Shown here one piece after another: positions 39,300 through 62,604 of a DNA stretch of 63,581 nucleotides. Position 1 is the first letter of the stretch. Each line of letters starts with the position of its first letter. The DNA comes from a virus. The stretch covers positions 1-63,581 of IMG/VR virus record IMGVR_UViG_3300036830_000158; one strand, written 5' to 3'. The translations under genes and the position numbers were made by a program. The notes beneath the pieces are model-generated. The model did no database searches. It saw only the letters and a program-made list of their open reading frames with translations, and was not told the DNA's origin.

Positions 39300-41021
39300 T
39301 CAGGCGTCGCAAGTTCTGTGTCCGGTCGCCAAGTCGACGCGGCAGGCGCCGCCGTTTAGGGTGGCGATCGGCTCCTGCTTGTTGTCCTCCTTCGCCTTGA
39401 GGACCCCGCTGCGCTTGCCGTCAGCTCGGAAAGTAGAACAGCTCTTGGCGCCCTCCCGCCAAGCCACCGCATAGACGTTTTTGAAATCGTCCCATGTTAC
39501 ATCCGGGCCGACATTGCAGGTTTTAGAGACGGCGCTGTCGACCATCTGCGATGCCGCGCAAAGCACGGCGAGATGGTCGTTAACCGTGCATTCCAGCGCG
39601 GTGCGGCCCCTTACGCCGAATCGCGCCAGGCCGTAATCCTGCATCTGATAGACTTTCGGCCCATCGGGAGTGATCAGCGTGCGGTCATATTGGTGGGCGA
39701 AAACCGGCTCGATGCCGGATGAGATGTTGTCGGCGGTGATCGAGATCGTGCCGGTCGGAGCAATCGAGGTGAGATGCGAATTGCGGATGCCGTATTGCCG
39801 GATGCCGTCGCGGATGTCCGCCGGCAGGGTCTGAATGAATTTGCCTTGTAGATATTTTTCAGCGTCGAATAATGGGAAACGGCCTTTTTCATCAGCCAGC
39901 CGCACCGATGTCCGATAGGCCGTGTCGCGCAATATCGTCAGAATGGAACGAAGCACCTTTAGGAATTCCGGGGAGCCATAAGGCGCGCCGAGAACTTCGA
40001 TTGCGTTTGCGGCCCCGGTGACGCCGAGCCCCATGCGCCGCTTCTGGATTTCCTCATGCTTTTGCTGCGGCAGCGGATAAACCGCCAGATCGATGACGTT
40101 GTCCATGCCACGCACCACAGCGGCAATGTCGCCTTTGAATTGATCTTCATCGAAATAAAGCCCCTTGCTGTCGCGATGGATGTAACGGACCAGATTGAAG
40201 GAGCCGAGTAGACAGGCGCCGAATGGCGGCAGTGGCTGTTCTGCGCACGGATTGGTGCTGGCGATAGTCTCGCAATAGCGCAGATTGTTCAGCCTGTTCA
40301 CTGCGTCGATGAAGATGATGCCAGGCTCGGCCCAATCCCACGTCGACCGCATGATTTCCGCCCAGAGATCGACGGCGCGCACCGTGGAGTGCACCCGGCC
40401 GCCGAATTTGAGATCAAAGCCGGCGTCGGCTTCGACGGCATGCATGAACTCGTCGGTAACCGCGACCGATATGTTAAAATTGGTGAGACTGGACTGGTCG
40501 CGCTTGGCGTGAATGAAGTCCAGGATATCGGGATGGTCGACACGCAAGATCCCCATCATCGCGCCGCGCCGATGCCCGGCGGAGCAAACCGTGCCGCACA
40601 CCGAATTGAATACGTCCATGAAGCTGATCGGCCCGGACGATGTTGACTGCAGGGACCTGATCAGATCGCCCTTGGGCCGGATCGTCGAAAAGTCGCTTCC
40701 CCAGCCGCCGCCCATGCGCAGCGTTTGCGCGCATTCGGTCGCCGCAAGCATGATGCCGTCCATGGAGTCTTCGATGGCGCGGCCGACGAAGCAATTGATC
40801 GGCGTCACCTTGCGCAAACTGCCAACGGCCGCCTGCACACGCCCTGCGGGCAGAAAACGCATGTCGAGCAAGATGTCGCGAAGAGCGTGGAAGTGTTCGG
40901 GGGAATCCTTCATGCCATCCGCAATCCGATTGATGGCGGCGCGGAAATCCTCGTTTGGTCCGCGATATTTCTCAGAATGGATTAAATCAGAAACCGTCAG
41001 CGTAGGCCCGCTCATCCGCAC
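39300..41021 (-). CDS. nrdJ: Adenosylcobalamin-dependent ribonucleotide reductase (class II)
   Basis: 573 aa. It makes deoxynucleotides with B12 as radical source and needs no second subunit. Recognised by LRDILLDMRFLPAGRVQAAV, NCFVGRAIEDSMDGIMLAAT, the redox and active-site loop STNPCAEQPLPPFGAC, and the late TGTISITADNISSGIEPVFA. Cys residues at the ends (CSTFRADGKR, and the final CDA) may form the shuttle pair. It is slightly short because the N-terminal ATP cone is absent. It would feed the phage's own DNA replication. Confidence 0.9.
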   Translation of the reverse strand: MRMSGPTLTVSDLIHSEKYRGPNEDFRAAINRIADGMKDSPEHFHALRDILLDMRFLPAGRVQAAVGSLRKVTPINCFVGRAIEDSMDGIMLAATECAQTLRMGGGWGSDFSTIRPKGDLIRSLQSTSSGPISFMDVFNSVCGTVCSAGHRRGAMMGILRVDHPDILDFIHAKRDQSSLTNFNISVAVTDEFMHAVEADAGFDLKFGGRVHSTVRAVDLWAEIMRSTWDWAEPGIIFIDAVNRLNNLRYCETIASTNPCAEQPLPPFGACLLGSFNLVRYIHRDSKGLYFDEDQFKGDIAAVVRGMDNVIDLAVYPLPQQKHEEIQKRRMGLGVTGAANAIEVLGAPYGSPEFLKVLRSILTILRDTAYRTSVRLADEKGRFPLFDAEKYLQGKFIQTLPADIRDGIRQYGIRNSHLTSIAPTGTISITADNISSGIEPVFAHQYDRTLITPDGPKVYQMQDYGLARFGVRGRTALECTVNDHLAVLCAASQMVDSAVSKTCNVGPDVTWDDFKNVYAVAWREGAKSCSTFRADGKRSGVLKAKEDNKQEPIATLNGGACRVDLATGHRTCDA

Positions 41022-56426: not shown

Positions 56427-56783
56427 ATGGATATGCGCAGTGAGAAACCAACTGGCCTTGCAGCGCGCATCGGCGCGGCGCTTAGAGCGATACGGAAAGA
56501 GCGCGGGCTGACCTTGAAGCAGATCGCGAATCATATGCAGACGACGGCGCAAACCGTGCAGCGGCTGGAAACCGCCAATATGACGATGTCACTGGAGTGG
56601 CTCGATGAATATTGCCGTATTCTTCATATCCCTCCCGCCGAGCTCTTCGACGATGATGTCGAGGACATCCTATCGCGGCGCAAATCCATCGGCAAAGCCC
56701 GCAGCGATGCTAAGAAGCTACGGATCGACGCCCTCGATTTTATCGGCCATGTCGACGAATTCCTGGAGCGGACCGATGGCTGA
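56427..56783 (+). CDS. XRE-family HTH regulator, first gene of the CRISPR operon
   Basis: 118 aa. HTH at residues about 14-60: GAALRAIRKERGLTLKQIAN, then TTAQTVQRLETANMTMSLEW, and a short helical C-terminus. The internal start codons favour the ATG at 56427. It overlaps the LuxR-type gene by 8 bases. As the leading gene with a dyad upstream, it is the likely autorepressor of the CRISPR-Cas operon. Confidence 0.75.
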   Translation: MDMRSEKPTGLAARIGAALRAIRKERGLTLKQIANHMQTTAQTVQRLETANMTMSLEWLDEYCRILHIPPAELFDDDVEDILSRRKSIGKARSDAKKLRIDALDFIGHVDEFLERTDG

Positions 56784-57048
56784 TGGCGTTGAACCGGTCG
56801 GGCTGCTGGCGTGCCCGAGGCTGTCGCCGCGCGAATGGCAGGTGCTCGGCCACATCGTCAATGGCACTTCGACAAAGATGATCGGACGGCTGCTCGATCT
56901 GTCGCCGCGCACGGTCGAGGTGCATCGGCAGCGCGTGCTCAGAAAGACCGGCGCCAGAAACGCCGCCCATGTCGCCGCGCTTGCCGGGCGGCATGGCTGG
57001 GTTGCCGATATCGCCCCCCCGAAACGGGCAAGGCCACCCGATGTCTGA
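56776..57048 (+). CDS. LuxR-type HTH protein
   Basis: 90 aa from the ATG at 56776. It is essentially a bare GerE/LuxR DNA-binding domain: LSPREWQVLGHIVNGTSTKM, IGRLLDLSPRTVEVHRQRVL, RKTGARNAAHVAALA, without a sensor domain. It overlaps the XRE gene and, by 8 bases, the small membrane protein gene. It probably takes part in switching the operon on, but the target sites are unknown. Confidence 0.8.
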   Translation: MADGVEPVGLLACPRLSPREWQVLGHIVNGTSTKMIGRLLDLSPRTVEVHRQRVLRKTGARNAAHVAALAGRHGWVADIAPPKRARPPDV

Positions 57049-57325
57049 CACTGATCTTTGCCCGGACCTTGAGGGCGTCGACCGGGAACGCCCCGGCGAC
57101 ATCCTGACGATCTTGATCGGCTACCCGGCGATGCTCGCCGCCATTTTCGCAGCGCTCTACAACGCGGAGACGCTTATCTGGAAATGGGTCGTGCTGCTCT
57201 GCGCCGGCTTCATGATTGCCCGGTTCGGTAATCTGCTTGCCCAGGACAAAGCCCGTATCGATCGTAATATCGAGCGGCTCCATCGCGAAATTCGGCGCAG
57301 AACGGAGCAGAACGGAGATGGCTGA
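57041..57325 (+). CDS. Two-span membrane protein of the CRISPR operon
   Basis: 94 aa from the ATG at 57041. After an acidic N-terminus it has two hydrophobic helices (ILTILIGYPAMLAAIFAALY and IWKWVVLLCAGFMIARFG), then a basic helical tail (DKARIDRNIERLHREIRRRT). It overlaps the Cas12-like gene by 8 bases. It may anchor or sense at the membrane for the CRISPR module. No known cas family matches. Confidence 0.6.
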   Translation: MSDTDLCPDLEGVDRERPGDILTILIGYPAMLAAIFAALYNAETLIWKWVVLLCAGFMIARFGNLLAQDKARIDRNIERLHREIRRRTEQNGDG

Positions 57326-59339
57326 TCAGTCAACAATAATGCGAATGCGCGGCACAGAGATCCGTTGCTATCCTTCGAAGAGCAAGCAGCGCAAGCTTGC
57401 ACGCTGGTGTGCGCGATCCACCCAGCTCTGGAACCTCATGCTCGATCTGCAAAAGGCCGCCTATAGCGGCGAGAACCGCTGGTCTGGCCTCGCTTGGCGG
57501 CCGATGTGGGCGCAAATCGTTAAGGACGATTATGTCGAGGCTGAGCGCATCTACCGCGACGGCAAGCGGGCCGCAGACAAGACCGTCAAGGGGCTGGTCG
57601 TTCCAGGCAAGATCATCAAGGAGCCAGGTGTCGGGCGCGAGGAAGAACGTGAAGAGCTCAAGGCCAGGTTGAAACAATTGGAGACGGAAAAGAAGAAAAA
57701 AACGCCGGAATTCCAAGCCGTCAAAGACAGCATAAATCGTATCGCGCCCAAACCGGAGCCGGTCGATCCGGCCTATCTCGAAAAGATTTTCTGGCATTGG
57801 CGTCCAAGCGGATTGCCATTGGAGGACGATCTGATGTTCGGCCTGTTCGCCGGCGTCCGGGAAGCGCTGCGCGGCGGCGGATGCCAGCATACCCATCGGC
57901 ATGCGCTGGCATGGTTGACCCGGAAAAAGCTCGCGGGCGACGTGGAGACGATCATCAGCTGGCTGAAGGAGCATGGTGGCGCTTGCGATTGCCAGGTGGT
58001 GGAAACCGCCGCCAAGGCGGCCCAGGAGACCGCCAAGACGAACCGGCCGGGTATTTTCATACCCGTCCTGACGCTGCAAAAGATTATGGCGCGGTTGAAA
58101 CGGGTCAAGCAATCCGAATGGATCGGCGATCTGCCAAGTCATGCCGCCCAGGCAGTCGTCAAGGACCTCGATCGCGCCATCGGCAATATGCTGCGCGAAC
58201 GCGGCAAAGTCGCCCGCGGCGAACCAAGCCGCAAGACCGGATTCCCGCGTCGCAAGCGCGCTGCCGACGGGTCGGTCTATCTGCCGAACACGACAGTGTT
58301 CTGGAATTTCCTGGCCAATGGCGTCAAGTTGCCGAATGGCGTCGGCACGATCTTTTATGAGCCGAAAGCATTGCGCAAGGTGCGGCGGGAGGCCGAAGAG
58401 CGCAAAGAGGAACGGCAATATAAGCAGGGCGCCGAAGTCGGCATGATCGGTGCGCGTATCTGGCGGCGCGGCCGGCAATGGTATCTGTCCGTGCAATGGC
58501 AGAGGCAGATCGAGCAACTGCCGCAGACGGGTCGCACAGCCGGCGTCAAGGTCAATGCGTCGATCCCGATTACTGTCTATGAGGATCGCCGGCCGATCAA
58601 AGAATATCCGATGCCACCCGTCGATGCAAAGTTGGCGGCTGCACACAAGGAAGTCTGCAGGGCGGTTTCCAGAACGCTGGATGTGCAAAAAAAACGCGAA
58701 GAGAAACTCACGCGCCGCAAACGGTGGCAGCGCCAGCGCGCCGCCGACGCCGGCAAGATCATCGCACCGATGGAAGCTGCTCGATTGCGGCGCAGCCGTG
58801 GCTTCCACCAGGCCAAGGACGAGATCGCGCGGCTGGAGAAGATTGACCAGGGAGCGCGCGACGACTTCATCCACGATGCGACAACCAAAATCGTCCGGCT
58901 CTTCGACGCCATCGCGGTGCAGAAAATGGACGTCGCCGGAATGATGAAAGACCGCGATGGCAAATTGGAAAAACGGCATGAACGTCGCCGCAAGCGGCAT
59001 GAAGGCAAGCCACGGCGGCAAGCAGGCCTGAAGATCGCCCGCAAAATGATGCGGCGTGCGGCCATGGCTCGGATCGTCTCGGTGCTGCAATACAAGTTCA
59101 CCGATCTGCGCGGCGAAGACAGTTTCCACGAGATCGACAAGCACGACGCCAATGCCTGTGTTTGCTCACGCTGCGGCACGATCCATCCCGATTGGCAGGA
59201 CGGCCGCAGAATCGTGCGCTGCAACGCCGTGCTGCCCGATGGAAGCACTTGCGGCAACGAGCTCGGGCGCGCCGCCAACGCGGCGCGTGTCAGCAAGCGC
59301 GAGCTGGATGCCCGGAAGAGAAAAGAAACCGCAATGTGA
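57318..59339 (+). CDS. Miniature Cas12/TnpB-like effector with degenerate RuvC site
   Basis: 673 aa from the ATG at 57318, which overlaps the previous stop like the other operon junctions; Met8 is another possible start. The N-terminal about 400 residues are helical and basic with an opening (RGTEIRCYPSKSKQRKLARW) like TnpB and small type V effectors. RuvC-I is GVKVNASIPITV (Lys411 where Asp is catalytic), RuvC-II is DAIAVQKMDVAGM (Gln535 for Glu), and RuvC-III is LGRAANAA (Gly650/Ala652 for Asp). The zinc ribbon is intact: C616/C619 and C635/C645. All three carboxylates are thus replaced, so DNA cutting is unlikely and guide-directed binding is likely. Closest in idea to Cas12m (type V-M), which binds without cutting; exact subtype not assignable by eye. 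Confidence 0.8.
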   Translation: MADQSTIMRMRGTEIRCYPSKSKQRKLARWCARSTQLWNLMLDLQKAAYSGENRWSGLAWRPMWAQIVKDDYVEAERIYRDGKRAADKTVKGLVVPGKIIKEPGVGREEEREELKARLKQLETEKKKKTPEFQAVKDSINRIAPKPEPVDPAYLEKIFWHWRPSGLPLEDDLMFGLFAGVREALRGGGCQHTHRHALAWLTRKKLAGDVETIISWLKEHGGACDCQVVETAAKAAQETAKTNRPGIFIPVLTLQKIMARLKRVKQSEWIGDLPSHAAQAVVKDLDRAIGNMLRERGKVARGEPSRKTGFPRRKRAADGSVYLPNTTVFWNFLANGVKLPNGVGTIFYEPKALRKVRREAEERKEERQYKQGAEVGMIGARIWRRGRQWYLSVQWQRQIEQLPQTGRTAGVKVNASIPITVYEDRRPIKEYPMPPVDAKLAAAHKEVCRAVSRTLDVQKKREEKLTRRKRWQRQRAADAGKIIAPMEAARLRRSRGFHQAKDEIARLEKIDQGARDDFIHDATTKIVRLFDAIAVQKMDVAGMMKDRDGKLEKRHERRRKRHEGKPRRQAGLKIARKMMRRAAMARIVSVLQYKFTDLRGEDSFHEIDKHDANACVCSRCGTIHPDWQDGRRIVRCNAVLPDGSTCGNELGRAANAARVSKRELDARKRKETAM

Positions 59340-59349
59340 GGAAGTTTCA

Positions 59350-59403
59350 ATGTTCGCTGCAATCTCATCGCTATCATCAAGAGCCATTATTGAGCCATCG
59401 TGA
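59350..59403 (+). CDS. 17-aa leader peptide coupled to cas1
   Basis: A strong GAGGAAG site precedes ATG at 59350; the frame MFAAISSLSSRAIIEPS ends at TGA 59401-59403, whose last base is the A of the cas1 ATG (TGATG). Cas1 itself has no good ribosome site, so translation of this peptide probably delivers ribosomes to cas1. Confidence 0.5.
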   Translation: MFAAISSLSSRAIIEPS

Positions 59404-60263
59404 TGCTTCCCGGACGTCTAGGTCTCGACAAGACCCGCATGCCTCACTCCGCGCGTCATGGCCTTCTTTGGCTCGATCGCGGCCGACTCGATGTCGAAGC
59501 CGGCTGCTTGCGCTTCACGACCGCTGGCGGCGCTCTTTCGGCGGGCGACTATCAGGTCCCGCAACAGGCTCTTTCCATGGTGCTGCTGGGGCCAGGATCG
59601 AGCGTCACGCATGATGCGCTCCGGCTGCTGGCCCACCAGGGAACGGGATTGGCCGCGATCGGCGAGGGTGGCGTTCGTCTCTATACCGCGCCGCCGTTGA
59701 TGGCTGCGACCTCGGCGCTGGCCAGGCGCCAGGCGGAACTTTGGGCGCGCCAGATATCGCGGATCGCCGTTGCTCGAAAGATGTATGCGCTTCGCCTCGG
59801 TGAGATCCTGCCGCATCGTGATATCGAAGTTTTGCGGGGCATCGAGGGCTCGCATGTCAAAGAGGCTTACAAGCGAGTCGCCGAAGAGTTCGGCGTCGAA
59901 TGGCGTGGACGGCGATACGACCGTGGCAATCCACAGGCGGCTGACCCGCCGAATCAGGCGATCAACCACGCGTCGAGCGCTGTGGTCGCGGCGGCTTCGA
60001 TAGCGGTTGCCGCGATGGCCGTAATCCCGCAGCTCGGCTTCGTCCACGAAGATTCCTCGCAGGCGTTCGTCCTCGACATTGCCGATCTCTTTCGCGATGA
60101 AGTGACGCTGCGCATCGCCTTTGGAGCGGTCAACGAGGCCAAGAGCAGCCAACGAACGCTTGAGCAACTCGTGCGCCGTCACGCCAATGCGATATTCGCG
60201 AAGACCGACCTCATTCCAACCATGATCGATCGCATCAAGACGCTATTGGAGGCGCCGCCATGA
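59400..60263 (+). CDS. cas1: CRISPR integrase Cas1, type I-E character
   Basis: 287 aa (GTG at 59400, or ATG at 59403). Cas1 inserts new spacers with Cas2. It follows the E. coli Cas1e pattern: ALSMVLLGPGSSVTHDALRL, ARKMYALRLGE, LRGIEGSHVKEAYKRVAEEF, GVEWRGRRYD, then LGFVHEDSSQAFVLDIADLF. Active-site residues are in place: Glu149, His216 and Asp229. It is close to full length, lacking only the Pro-rich tail of E. coli Cas1. The start overlaps the leader peptide, and the stop overlaps cas2 by four bases (ATGA). The catalytic residues argue for an active adaptation module. Confidence 0.92.
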   Translation: MMLPGRLGLDKTRMPHSARHGLLWLDRGRLDVEAGCLRFTTAGGALSAGDYQVPQQALSMVLLGPGSSVTHDALRLLAHQGTGLAAIGEGGVRLYTAPPLMAATSALARRQAELWARQISRIAVARKMYALRLGEILPHRDIEVLRGIEGSHVKEAYKRVAEEFGVEWRGRRYDRGNPQAADPPNQAINHASSAVVAAASIAVAAMAVIPQLGFVHEDSSQAFVLDIADLFRDEVTLRIAFGAVNEAKSSQRTLEQLVRRHANAIFAKTDLIPTMIDRIKTLLEAPP

Positions 60264-60565
60264 GCCTGACCATCGTCATCACACGCGACGTGCAGGATCG
60301 GTATCGCGGCTATCTTCGGTCGGCGATGCTGGAGGTCGACGCTGGCGTTTACGTCAGTTCGCGGCTCAATCGTGACGTGCGCGATAGGTTATGGGATGTA
60401 TTGGCGGAATGGTTCGGCGTGCTGTCGCGCGGTTCTATTGTTATGATCTGGCGCGATCGCGACGCGGCGTCGAATATCGGGATGAAGACGCTAGGCATTC
60501 CGAGACGAGAAATTGCAGATGTTGATGATTTACTCTTGACACGACGTGAATTGTCATCCAAATAA
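60260..60565 (+). CDS. cas2: Cas2, type I-E character
   Basis: 101 aa. Cas2 dimers bridge two Cas1 dimers and hold the incoming spacer. The opening SLTIVITRDVQDRYRGYLRS and the segment LEVDAGVYVSSRLNRDVRDR-LWDVL are the Cas2e (CasE-operon) type, not the general Cas2 family, and IVMIWRDRDAASNIGMKTLG is the second core strand. It is followed directly by the array leader. Confidence 0.92.
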   Translation: MSLTIVITRDVQDRYRGYLRSAMLEVDAGVYVSSRLNRDVRDRLWDVLAEWFGVLSRGSIVMIWRDRDAASNIGMKTLGIPRREIADVDDLLLTRRELSSK

Positions 60566-60819
60566 GCTTCACTGCCTTCGGGTGGTCTAGGGTTTGTCTA
60601 AACCCGACGTTAAGCCCGCCTCGGTCGCTCGCGTGAGGGCGCCGGGGCTGCCGAAGTAAGTCCCGTGTTTCCAGCGGGCCACGGCATCTGAGCGCCCTCT
60701 GTCGGCGGAACCCATCTGGGGTCTACGAGACATGGCGGTGCGGGGGGAACCTTCGCAGGCTTCGGCCGACCGACCGCTCTTTGAAATTGTGGATGGGCGA
60801 CAGCGACTTAGCGGCTAGA
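60566..60819 (+). promoter_or_regulatory. CRISPR leader
   Basis: 254 bases from the cas2 stop to the first repeat. It should contain the array promoter and the integration signals used by Cas1-Cas2. The far end of the array carries the broken repeat, so new spacers enter here. It is G+C-rich and strongly structured (separate entry). A degenerate repeat-like string GGTCGC-TC-GCGTGAGGG occurs at about 60623-60639. Confidence 0.65.
60581..60702 (+). ncRNA. Structured RNA candidate in the leader
   Basis: A hairpin GTC-TA-GGGTTT-GTCT-AAACCC-GAC (60585-60608) is followed by a long-range 8-bp perfect stem GAGGGCGC/GCGCCCTC (60635-60642 with 60692-60699) that encloses TGCCG/CGGCA (60649-60653, 60682-60686) and CCCG/CGGG (60662-60665, 60675-60678). 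The nested helices look like a folded RNA. It could be a tracrRNA/scoutRNA-like partner of the Cas12-like protein or an untranslated leader. No clear anti-repeat was found. Confidence 0.4.
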
Positions 60820-62604
60820 GGTCGCCCCAAGCGTGCGAGGGGAGACGGGGGCTCGGCATCGATGATGCCAGGAAGTTGCAGGTCGCCCCAAGCGTGCGAG
60901 GGGAGACGCAGAAGGGCCCTGAAAAACGCCCTGAAACGGCGGGTCGCCCCAAGCGTGCGAGGGGAGACGAAATTCCAGGAGCGCGTCGGCCTGACAGGCC
61001 CTGGTCGCCCCAAGCGTGCGAGGGGAGACGCCGCCGCGAATTGCGTTCCGCGATTTTCCGCTGGGTCGCCCCAAGCGTGCGAGGGGAGACGGCAGTCAAA
61101 ACCATCGCGGTCCGAGCAGAATTTGGTCGCCCCAAGCGTGCGAGGGGAGACGCCATCTATCCAAATCGGACGGTTGCCCGCTCTCGGTCGCCCCAAGCGT
61201 GCGAGGGGAGACGGCGCCGGAACCGAGCTTCTATTGAGGCCTGTGCGGTCGCCCCAAGCGTGCGAGGGGAGACGGTTTGGAGGCAATCGCCGCGAAAGCA
61301 TCATCCGGGTCGCCCCAAGCGTGCGAGGGGAGACGGGATTTCGATCTGCATGCTGCGGCCGAGGGCATGGTCGCCCCAAGCGTGCGAGGGGAGACGGGGT
61401 TGATTCCGCCCCTGCCCCGCAAAAAATCGGGTCGCCCCAAGCGTGCGAGGGGAGACGTTTTCCGACCGTGACTCTCCTTTAATAGCACCTGGTCGCCCCA
61501 AGCGTGCGAGGGGAGACGCTACGATGCTCGTTTCGGTCGACGTTCCAGGCAGGTCGCCCCAAGCGTGCGAGGGGAGACGCGGTCATGTCATTTTGGGTGC
61601 TGCCAAGCCGGGGGTCGCCCCAAGCGTGCGAGGGGAGACGTTGAATCGTTGGGCGAGCGACGGCCGACTGCCGGGTCGCCCCAAGCGTGCGAGGGGAGAC
61701 GTCGTTATGGCGTTCCATGATTGAGCTGGATCATGGTCGCCCCAAGCGTGCGAGGGGAGACGACATTTTATTGCGTTTTCTTATATGTAGCGTCTGGTCG
61801 CCCCAAGCGTGCGAGGGGAGACGTTGCGCAGAATACATAAGCGCGACCTCTGACCGGGTCGCCCCAAGCGTGCGAGGGGAGACGCCTCAGACGATAGGGT
61901 GTACGCGATGAGCGGCGGGTCGCCCCAAGCGTGCGAGGGGAGACGGCGATTCTGATCGGGATGGACCAGCATATCCTGGGTCGCCCCAAGCGTGCGAGGG
62001 GAGACGAAGTCGAGAGGCGCCTTAGGTTTCGTTGGCCGCGGTCGCCCCAAGCGTGCGAGGGGAGACGTTTCAGACGGCATGACGTGGCTCTGAAGTCACA
62101 GGTCGCCCCAAGCGTGCGAGGGGAGACGTCAAAATCCGCGAGCACGCCGCGTTCCTCGAAAGGTCGCCCCAAGCGTGCGAGGGGAGACGGCGGTCAGCTA
62201 CGAGCCGAGGAAGTGGGAAGCTGGTCGCCCCAAGCGTGCGAGGGGAGACGACTGTATCTTCGTCCTTCACGGCCTGATTTTTCGGTCGCCCCAAGCGTGC
62301 GAGGGGAGACGGTGGTTTGAATGCGAACGTCCGCTCCCCCGGGCGGTCGCCCCAAGCGTGCGAGGGGAGACGTTTCAGACGGCATGACGTGGCTCTGAAG
62401 TCACAGGTCGCCCCAAGCGTGCGAGGGGAGACGGAGGCGATTATCATCCCGCAAACGAGCTTACCTGGTCGCCCCAAGCGTGCGAGGGGAGACGTTTTGT
62501 CGTACTTCGATGCCATGGGGCATGCCGGGTCGCCCCAAGCGTGCGAGGGGAGACGTAGTATAGGGCGGCGATGTCTGTGATGGACATCGGTCGCAGGGGA
62601 GACG
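60820..62604 (+). CRISPR. CRISPR array, 29 full repeats plus one broken repeat, 29 spacers
   Basis: Each repeat is 28 bases beginning GGTCGCCCC and ending GGGGAGACG, with a 10-base loop between the CCCC and GGGG stem arms. Spacers are all 33 bases, and every unit measured is 61 bases, as in type I-E arrays. The repeats are perfect from 60820 to 62555. The last one (62589-62604) lacks 12 internal bases, which marks the leader-distal end. Spacers 21 and 26 (62068 and 62373) are identical. The array sits next to cas1-cas2 and is read in the same direction. Spacer targets cannot be named from this window. Confidence 0.98.

Follow-up and report, generated by a model that had tools for sequence, protein, structure and literature searches.

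Compact, non-cleaving relatives of Cas12 and TnpB are already known from mobile elements. Cas12m protects by binding DNA without cleavage, and the clustered regularly interspaced short palindromic repeats (CRISPR) systems of type V-M to which it belongs use a single CRISPR RNA (crRNA) without a trans-activating CRISPR RNA (tracrRNA) (PMC11013384); these systems are enriched on mobile elements, including plasmids and some prophages (PMC11656645, PMC11013384). TldR proteins are nuclease-dead, RNA-guided TnpB repressors encoded by temperate phages (PMC13418256). According to the 2025 classification, TnpB is inferred to have been captured by CRISPR loci on about 50 separate occasions and dead type V effectors arose repeatedly (PMC12669027), so that each ingredient of the system described here is already known. 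This system lies on the viral contig IMGVR_UViG_3300036830_000158, which was analyzed over its entire length of 63,581 bp (the window), and consists of a Cas12-like effector gene followed by type I-E-like cas1 and cas2 genes and a CRISPR array. Effectors of CasPhi, CasLambda, and other type V families are likewise carried by phages; to our knowledge, those described have an active RuvC site and none is accompanied by I-E Cas1-Cas2. Exchange of adaptation modules and effectors between CRISPR systems is known, and the combination of a dead Cas12, a tracrRNA, and I-E Cas1-Cas2 was undescribed in the literature searched, which comprised main texts without two key type V surveys.

The locus is probably a tracrRNA-dependent, type V-like phage CRISPR system with a borrowed I-E adaptation module, whose nuclease-dead effector would bind and silence DNA without cutting it. 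A more specific history, which we favor with less assurance, is that of a phage-evolved adaptive RNA-guided repressor, in which a dead, tracrRNA-dependent Cas12 would have displaced Cascade from an I-E locus while Cas1-Cas2, the leader, and the array geometry were kept, such that targets continue to be learned but are silenced instead of cut. The system has the appearance of a complete Class 1/Class 2 chimera, in which a memory module of class 1 supplies a tracrRNA-dependent effector of class 2. TldR resembles it in being a phage-encoded, dead TnpB-family protein guided by RNA (here by prediction); however, TldR has a fixed guide, whereas the window system comes with an array and with spacer-acquisition genes of its own.

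A Cas12-like effector with replaced RuvC residues

The effector gene (57318–59339, plus strand) encodes 673 amino acids with a TnpB/Cas12f-like fold, with a possible earlier start at 57216 (TTG). The protein matched the PADLOC profile Cas12_x2 over its full length (E = 5e-158; the homolog in L057 scored 1102 bits), the next-best profiles being Cas12u4 and Cas12f, with Cas12f proper at 1e-13. It also matched the NCBIfam model guided_TnpB (NF040570; E = 4.5e-22), bearing out the proposal of an earlier note, made from the sequence alone, that the Cas12-like protein is the effector candidate. A profile search of the PDB returned TnpB at 1e-12 and none of the solved Cas12m chains at E ≤ 1. The AlphaFold model of the L054 homolog (mean predicted local distance difference test [pLDDT] 57, with 70–89 in the RuvC region) resembled TnpB (1e-11), Cas12f, and Cas12m structures in Foldseek; a first effector model with a mean pLDDT of 46 was set aside and not used. 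The family alignment places CxxC zinc-finger positions in the effector, completing the single-protein WED/RuvC/zinc-finger architecture, like that of TnpB and Cas12, that typifies type V. These zinc-finger cysteines are present in all other members but are gone from the C terminus of the L056 effector (SASSVTGT...).

Alignment of the effector family with three TnpB proteins allowed the RuvC sites to be read. At RuvC-I (58548–58550, plus strand), the TnpB aspartate is replaced by Lys411, and lysine occurs in every member covering the site. At RuvC-II (58920–58922, plus strand), where the pairwise alignment with ISDra2 TnpB agreed with the family alignments, the glutamate is replaced by Gln535 (proline in L059), and at RuvC-III (59271–59273, plus strand), the aspartate is replaced by Ala652 (asparagine or threonine in relatives). 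The catalytic D-E-D triad of type V accordingly reads K-Q-A in the window and K, Q or P, and A, N, or T in relatives; it is lacking from the window effector and from all relatives covering the sites, and every readable member is changed. Judged by these residues, the effector is nuclease-dead in all members with readable sites. Loss of the triad does not exclude type V, because natural dead members of that type are known (PMC12669027).

Among described subtypes, profile matches tentatively relate the effector to V-F and the former V-U2 and V-U4 (Cas12f-like, c2c8, and Cas12u4). The family was known beforehand as the PADLOC catalog entry Cas12_x2, labeled V-F, and, as in Cas12f systems, the predicted tracrRNA with its anti-repeat adjoins the array. 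The window system differs from these subtypes in its replaced RuvC triad, in its I-E adaptation module, and in having been found so far only on phages; a search for Cas12_x2 in approximately 394 bacterial genomes, mostly Alphaproteobacteria, returned none, although without a positive control. With V-M it shares a compact Cas12, here predicted to bind DNA without cleaving it, a setting on mobile elements, and the Foldseek likeness of the L054 model, which is common to the superfamily. V-M active sites, in contrast, read D-E-D, H-D-D, or N-D-D, and membership of V-M was ruled out by the absence of a sequence match to solved Cas12m together with the predicted tracrRNA, which V-M lacks.

A type I-E adaptation module and array with a predicted tracrRNA

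Downstream of the effector gene lie cas1e (59400–60263, plus strand) and cas2e (60260–60565, plus strand). Cas1 scored 302 bits against NCBIfam TIGR03638 (cas1_ECOLI; cut-off 215.6; E = 3.2e-90) and Cas2 82.9 bits against TIGR01873 (cas_CT1978; cut-off 33.15; E = 1.3e-23). The Cas1 residues E149, H216, D226, and D229, which we take to correspond to the catalytic E141, H208, D218, and D221 of Escherichia coli Cas1, are intact and invariant across the phage family. In a tree of 55 sequences, the seven phage Cas1 proteins formed one clade (100/98) amid proteobacterial I-E Cas1e; the tree was built without type V Cas1, which was excluded instead by the family-model scores. The adaptation module is thus, by sequence, of I-E origin. 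Queries from three annotated I-E loci, which match nearly all I-E loci, found no homolog of Cas3, Cse1, Cse2, Cas7, Cas5, or Cas6e at E ≤ 10, either in the window or among eight phage records related to it.

A Cas1 search of viral contigs returned one near-copy and six records at 70–74% Cas1 identity, while the bacterial Cas1e proteins found reached at most 67%. In all six records, a Cas12 homolog stands directly upstream of cas1e and cas2e with an array downstream, so that the order cas12-like, cas1e, cas2e, array is common to the window and six further phage lineages. Bacterial Cas1e relatives (L003–L006 and L009–L051) have Cascade genes adjoining. Two of the phage relatives have circular genomes of 55,991 and 56,466 bp, the ends of each record overlapping by 127 bp, and in one of them the Cas12 gene spans the record ends; G004 and G008, which share a 127-bp overlap, belong to a single phage. 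Searches by tracrRNA pattern, Cas1 alignment, and RecT added no members to those already known and otherwise returned only L083, a viral-labeled 63.9-kb contig with a complete ordinary type I-E locus; this contig is perhaps bacterial and mislabeled, or a phage that carries an entire I-E system.

The array (60820–62604, plus strand) comprises 29 perfect 28-nucleotide (nt) copies of the repeat GGTCGCCCCAAGCGTGCGAGGGGAGACG at 60820–62555 and a shortened terminal repeat at 62589–62604 with an internal 12-nt deletion; every spacer is 33 nt long and the period is 61. The geometry is that of I-E, as the earlier note had stated. Its reading of Cas1 and Cas2 as I-E-like and of a locus without Cascade or Cas3 also held, and two of the checks that it had proposed, a Cas1 phylogeny and a search for related loci in phages, respectively placed Cas1 firmly inside I-E rather than with a type V clade (subject to the composition of the tree) and recovered the same gene order in the six further lineages. 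Immediately 5′ of the first repeat is an I-E-like leader (60776–60819, plus strand; TCTTTGAAATTGTG...CAGCGACTTAG...AGAGG) resembling the Sphingomonas I-E leader of L006. Arrays across the phage family are 8–30 repeats long with near-identical repeats. One spacer occurs twice in the window array, at 62040–62128 and 62345–62433 (TTTCAGACGG...), as do two spacers in L056 and one in L057, which suggests duplication or re-acquisition.

Cas1e, Cas2e, the leader, and the 61-nt period are thus shared with proteobacterial type I-E, from which the window differs in having no Cascade, Cas3, or Cas6e, in its repeat, and in a predicted tracrRNA between cas2 and the leader. Cas6e recognizes a 6-bp hairpin in the repeat. 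Such a perfect 6-bp stem is possible in all 16 sampled I-E repeats, whereas the phage repeats form 3–5 bp at most and have, to judge from their sequences, lost the Cas6e hairpin. The interval from cas2 to the array is 254–301 nt in the phages as compared to 19–124 nt (with one exception of 365) in the I-E loci measured. It holds the predicted tracrRNA (60566–60775, plus strand; ends approximate), a putative structured noncoding RNA whose sequence is conserved among the seven phage lineages, for which a shared fold has compensatory changes in 28 of 58 pairs and 93.8% of cells paired, as compared to 39–46% in slid controls.

Near its 3′ end is an anti-repeat, CCTTCGCAGGCTTCGGCCGACC (60750–60771, plus strand), complementary to the CRISPR repeat. 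Across the seven lineages, the anti-repeat/repeat helix has 19 pairs, 10 of them with compensatory changes on both sides, and 93.2% of 133 cells are paired, as compared to 30–50% in slid controls; none of 500 shuffles was as high on percentage paired or on covariation score. In every leader, the anti-repeat coincides with the best pairing site or lies within a few nucleotides of it, and the duplex that each forms with its own repeat has an energy of −26 to −41 kcal/mol, a value attained by at most one of 300 shuffled repeats. The case for a tracrRNA rests on this covariation, because the fold energy of the region alone is not unusual (z 0.21) and a duplex-energy scan of the 300 nt 5′ of the array is not enough on its own to tell phages from I-E loci. 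An Rfam search of the region gave no match, and a promoter scan was uninformative.

Because the covarying anti-repeat marks a predicted tracrRNA, the array should serve the Cas12-like protein rather than a host Cascade, an assignment made mainly from this helix and the reshaped repeat. The repeat appears to have been converted from a Cas6e substrate to a tracrRNA partner, and the arrangement looks like an insertion of the tracrRNA at the junction of cas2 with the I-E leader; as the leader is still recognizable, a trace of this splice remains visible. The earlier note was right about the array and the cas genes but missed both the dead state of the effector and the tracrRNA.

Proposed silencing mechanism and alternatives

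In the proposed mechanism, Cas1e-Cas2e would insert 33-bp fragments of foreign DNA beside the I-E leader, and the array transcript would pair, through each repeat, with the anti-repeat of the tracrRNA, whose gene lies between cas2 and the array. The resulting duplex of crRNA and tracrRNA would be matured by a nuclease, RNase III being usual in tracrRNA systems, and the guide would load into the nuclease-dead Cas12-like protein. By analogy with Cas12m and TldR, the complex may then bind matching DNA and block its transcription or replication without cutting, and a lysogen could in this manner silence competing phages or plasmids, or host genes. If so, an I-E Cas1-Cas2 keeps an array current without Cascade or Cas3 in its own locus, and a learning version is added to the dead repressors borne by mobile elements (Cas12m and TldR). 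The question of how adaptive immunity stays useful without cleavage would become testable, and the system would provide a compact, naturally occurring Cas12 that binds DNA, together with a ready-made recording module.

Turnover of the array is evident from a sister phage, G001, which has 97–99% DNA identity to the window over most of the shared region, 99% in the effector, and the same repeat. None of its 13 complete visible spacers occurs in the window array, although the G001 array ends with its contig and older shared spacers may exist. That so near a relative shares no visible spacer indicates that the array turns over and that the memory is in use; since spacers turn over, competitors are more likely targets than host genes.

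Several points weigh against silencing as proposed. None of 126 spacers was matched to a target, most of the searching having been in small or pathogen-biased collections. Searched against phage and plasmid collections, the window array returned only itself or chance-level matches, as did two partial spacers scanned in IMG/VR; all spacers against related phages and their own genomes gave a best match of 25/33 (24 for shuffled spacers), and against 50 loci, mostly I-E, nothing beyond chance. Silencing is consequently proposed by analogy. Confidence in the AlphaFold effector models is low (mean pLDDT 46 and 57), and an effector that no longer cuts could have a different role, such as sequestering RNA. 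Separately, spacer 4 of the L054 array and spacer 1 of the L056 array agree at roughly 22 of their 33 nt, and one reading frame of each encodes DA....AFGK, which suggests a common target gene; cas3 was dropped as that target, because neither spacer encodes the conserved V/I-E of Cas3.

One alternative is an anti-CRISPR decoy, whereby the dead effector, the tracrRNA, or the array RNA would sequester or misdirect host CRISPR components (Cas1-Cas2 or crRNAs) instead of targeting DNA by means of the phage's own spacers. An array-less, RuvC-dead Cas9 encoded by phages has been proposed to act so (PMC10910872, PMC11656645), and the present effector is dead in all members. However, a decoy needs neither an intact adaptation module nor a complete difference in spacers between two near-identical phages, and the length and uniformity of the arrays also argue against it; we regard it as improbable.

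Slightly less probable again is that targets are still destroyed, either by another phage or host nuclease recruited to the Cas12-bound site, as in the reported pairing of Cas12m with Cas3 (PMC10910872), or through an extra activity of a DUF2695 domain (57843–58001, plus strand; amino acids 176–228; Pfam PF10905, 4.9e-11) inserted in the N-terminal half of the effector. This insert is present in two members, the window and L057 (amino acids 218–265), but absent from L054 and L055, and the operons of the different lineages have no conserved nuclease gene. In the L057 effector, a second, diverged DUF2695 can be discerned by eye ahead of the first-recognized one.

Very unlikely is the other possibility raised by the earlier note, in which the crRNAs of the phage array would go to a type I-E Cascade of the host and the Cas12-like protein would have no connection with the array. 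In its favor are the I-E-like character of Cas1e, Cas2e, and the leader, the 61-nt period, and the repeat length of 28 nt, but the repeat lacks the hairpin possible in all 16 sampled I-E repeats and covaries with the anti-repeat adjoining the array, the Cas12 gene is adjacent in 7/7 lineages, and we know of no I-E tracrRNA. The capture of an I-E adaptation module by a type V-like effector, which that note had offered first, is supported by the recurring gene order, the position of Cas1 within I-E, and the covarying anti-repeat.

Phage context and neighboring genes

The window encodes a terminase, portal and head proteins, an integrase, an S24/helix-turn-helix (HTH) repressor, and RecE/RecT, from which gene content the phage is taken to be temperate, in agreement with the small temperate phage context described in the earlier note. 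Its terminase is nearest to those of Xanthomonas, Aminobacter, and Rhizobium phages and of spring-water phages (51–57% across two thirds of the length). A spanin gene adjoins the array here and in several lineages, which points to a similar place for the cassette in this phage group. Just 5′ of the cas operon are a Cro/CI-type HTH regulator (56427–56783, plus strand), with homologs in G002, G003, and G008, and a LuxR-type HTH regulator (56605–57048); homologs of this pair occur in some relatives, and the two may control the operon. Elsewhere in the window, the large subunit of ribonucleotide reductase is encoded at 39300–41021 and has 74% identity to its counterpart in G008.

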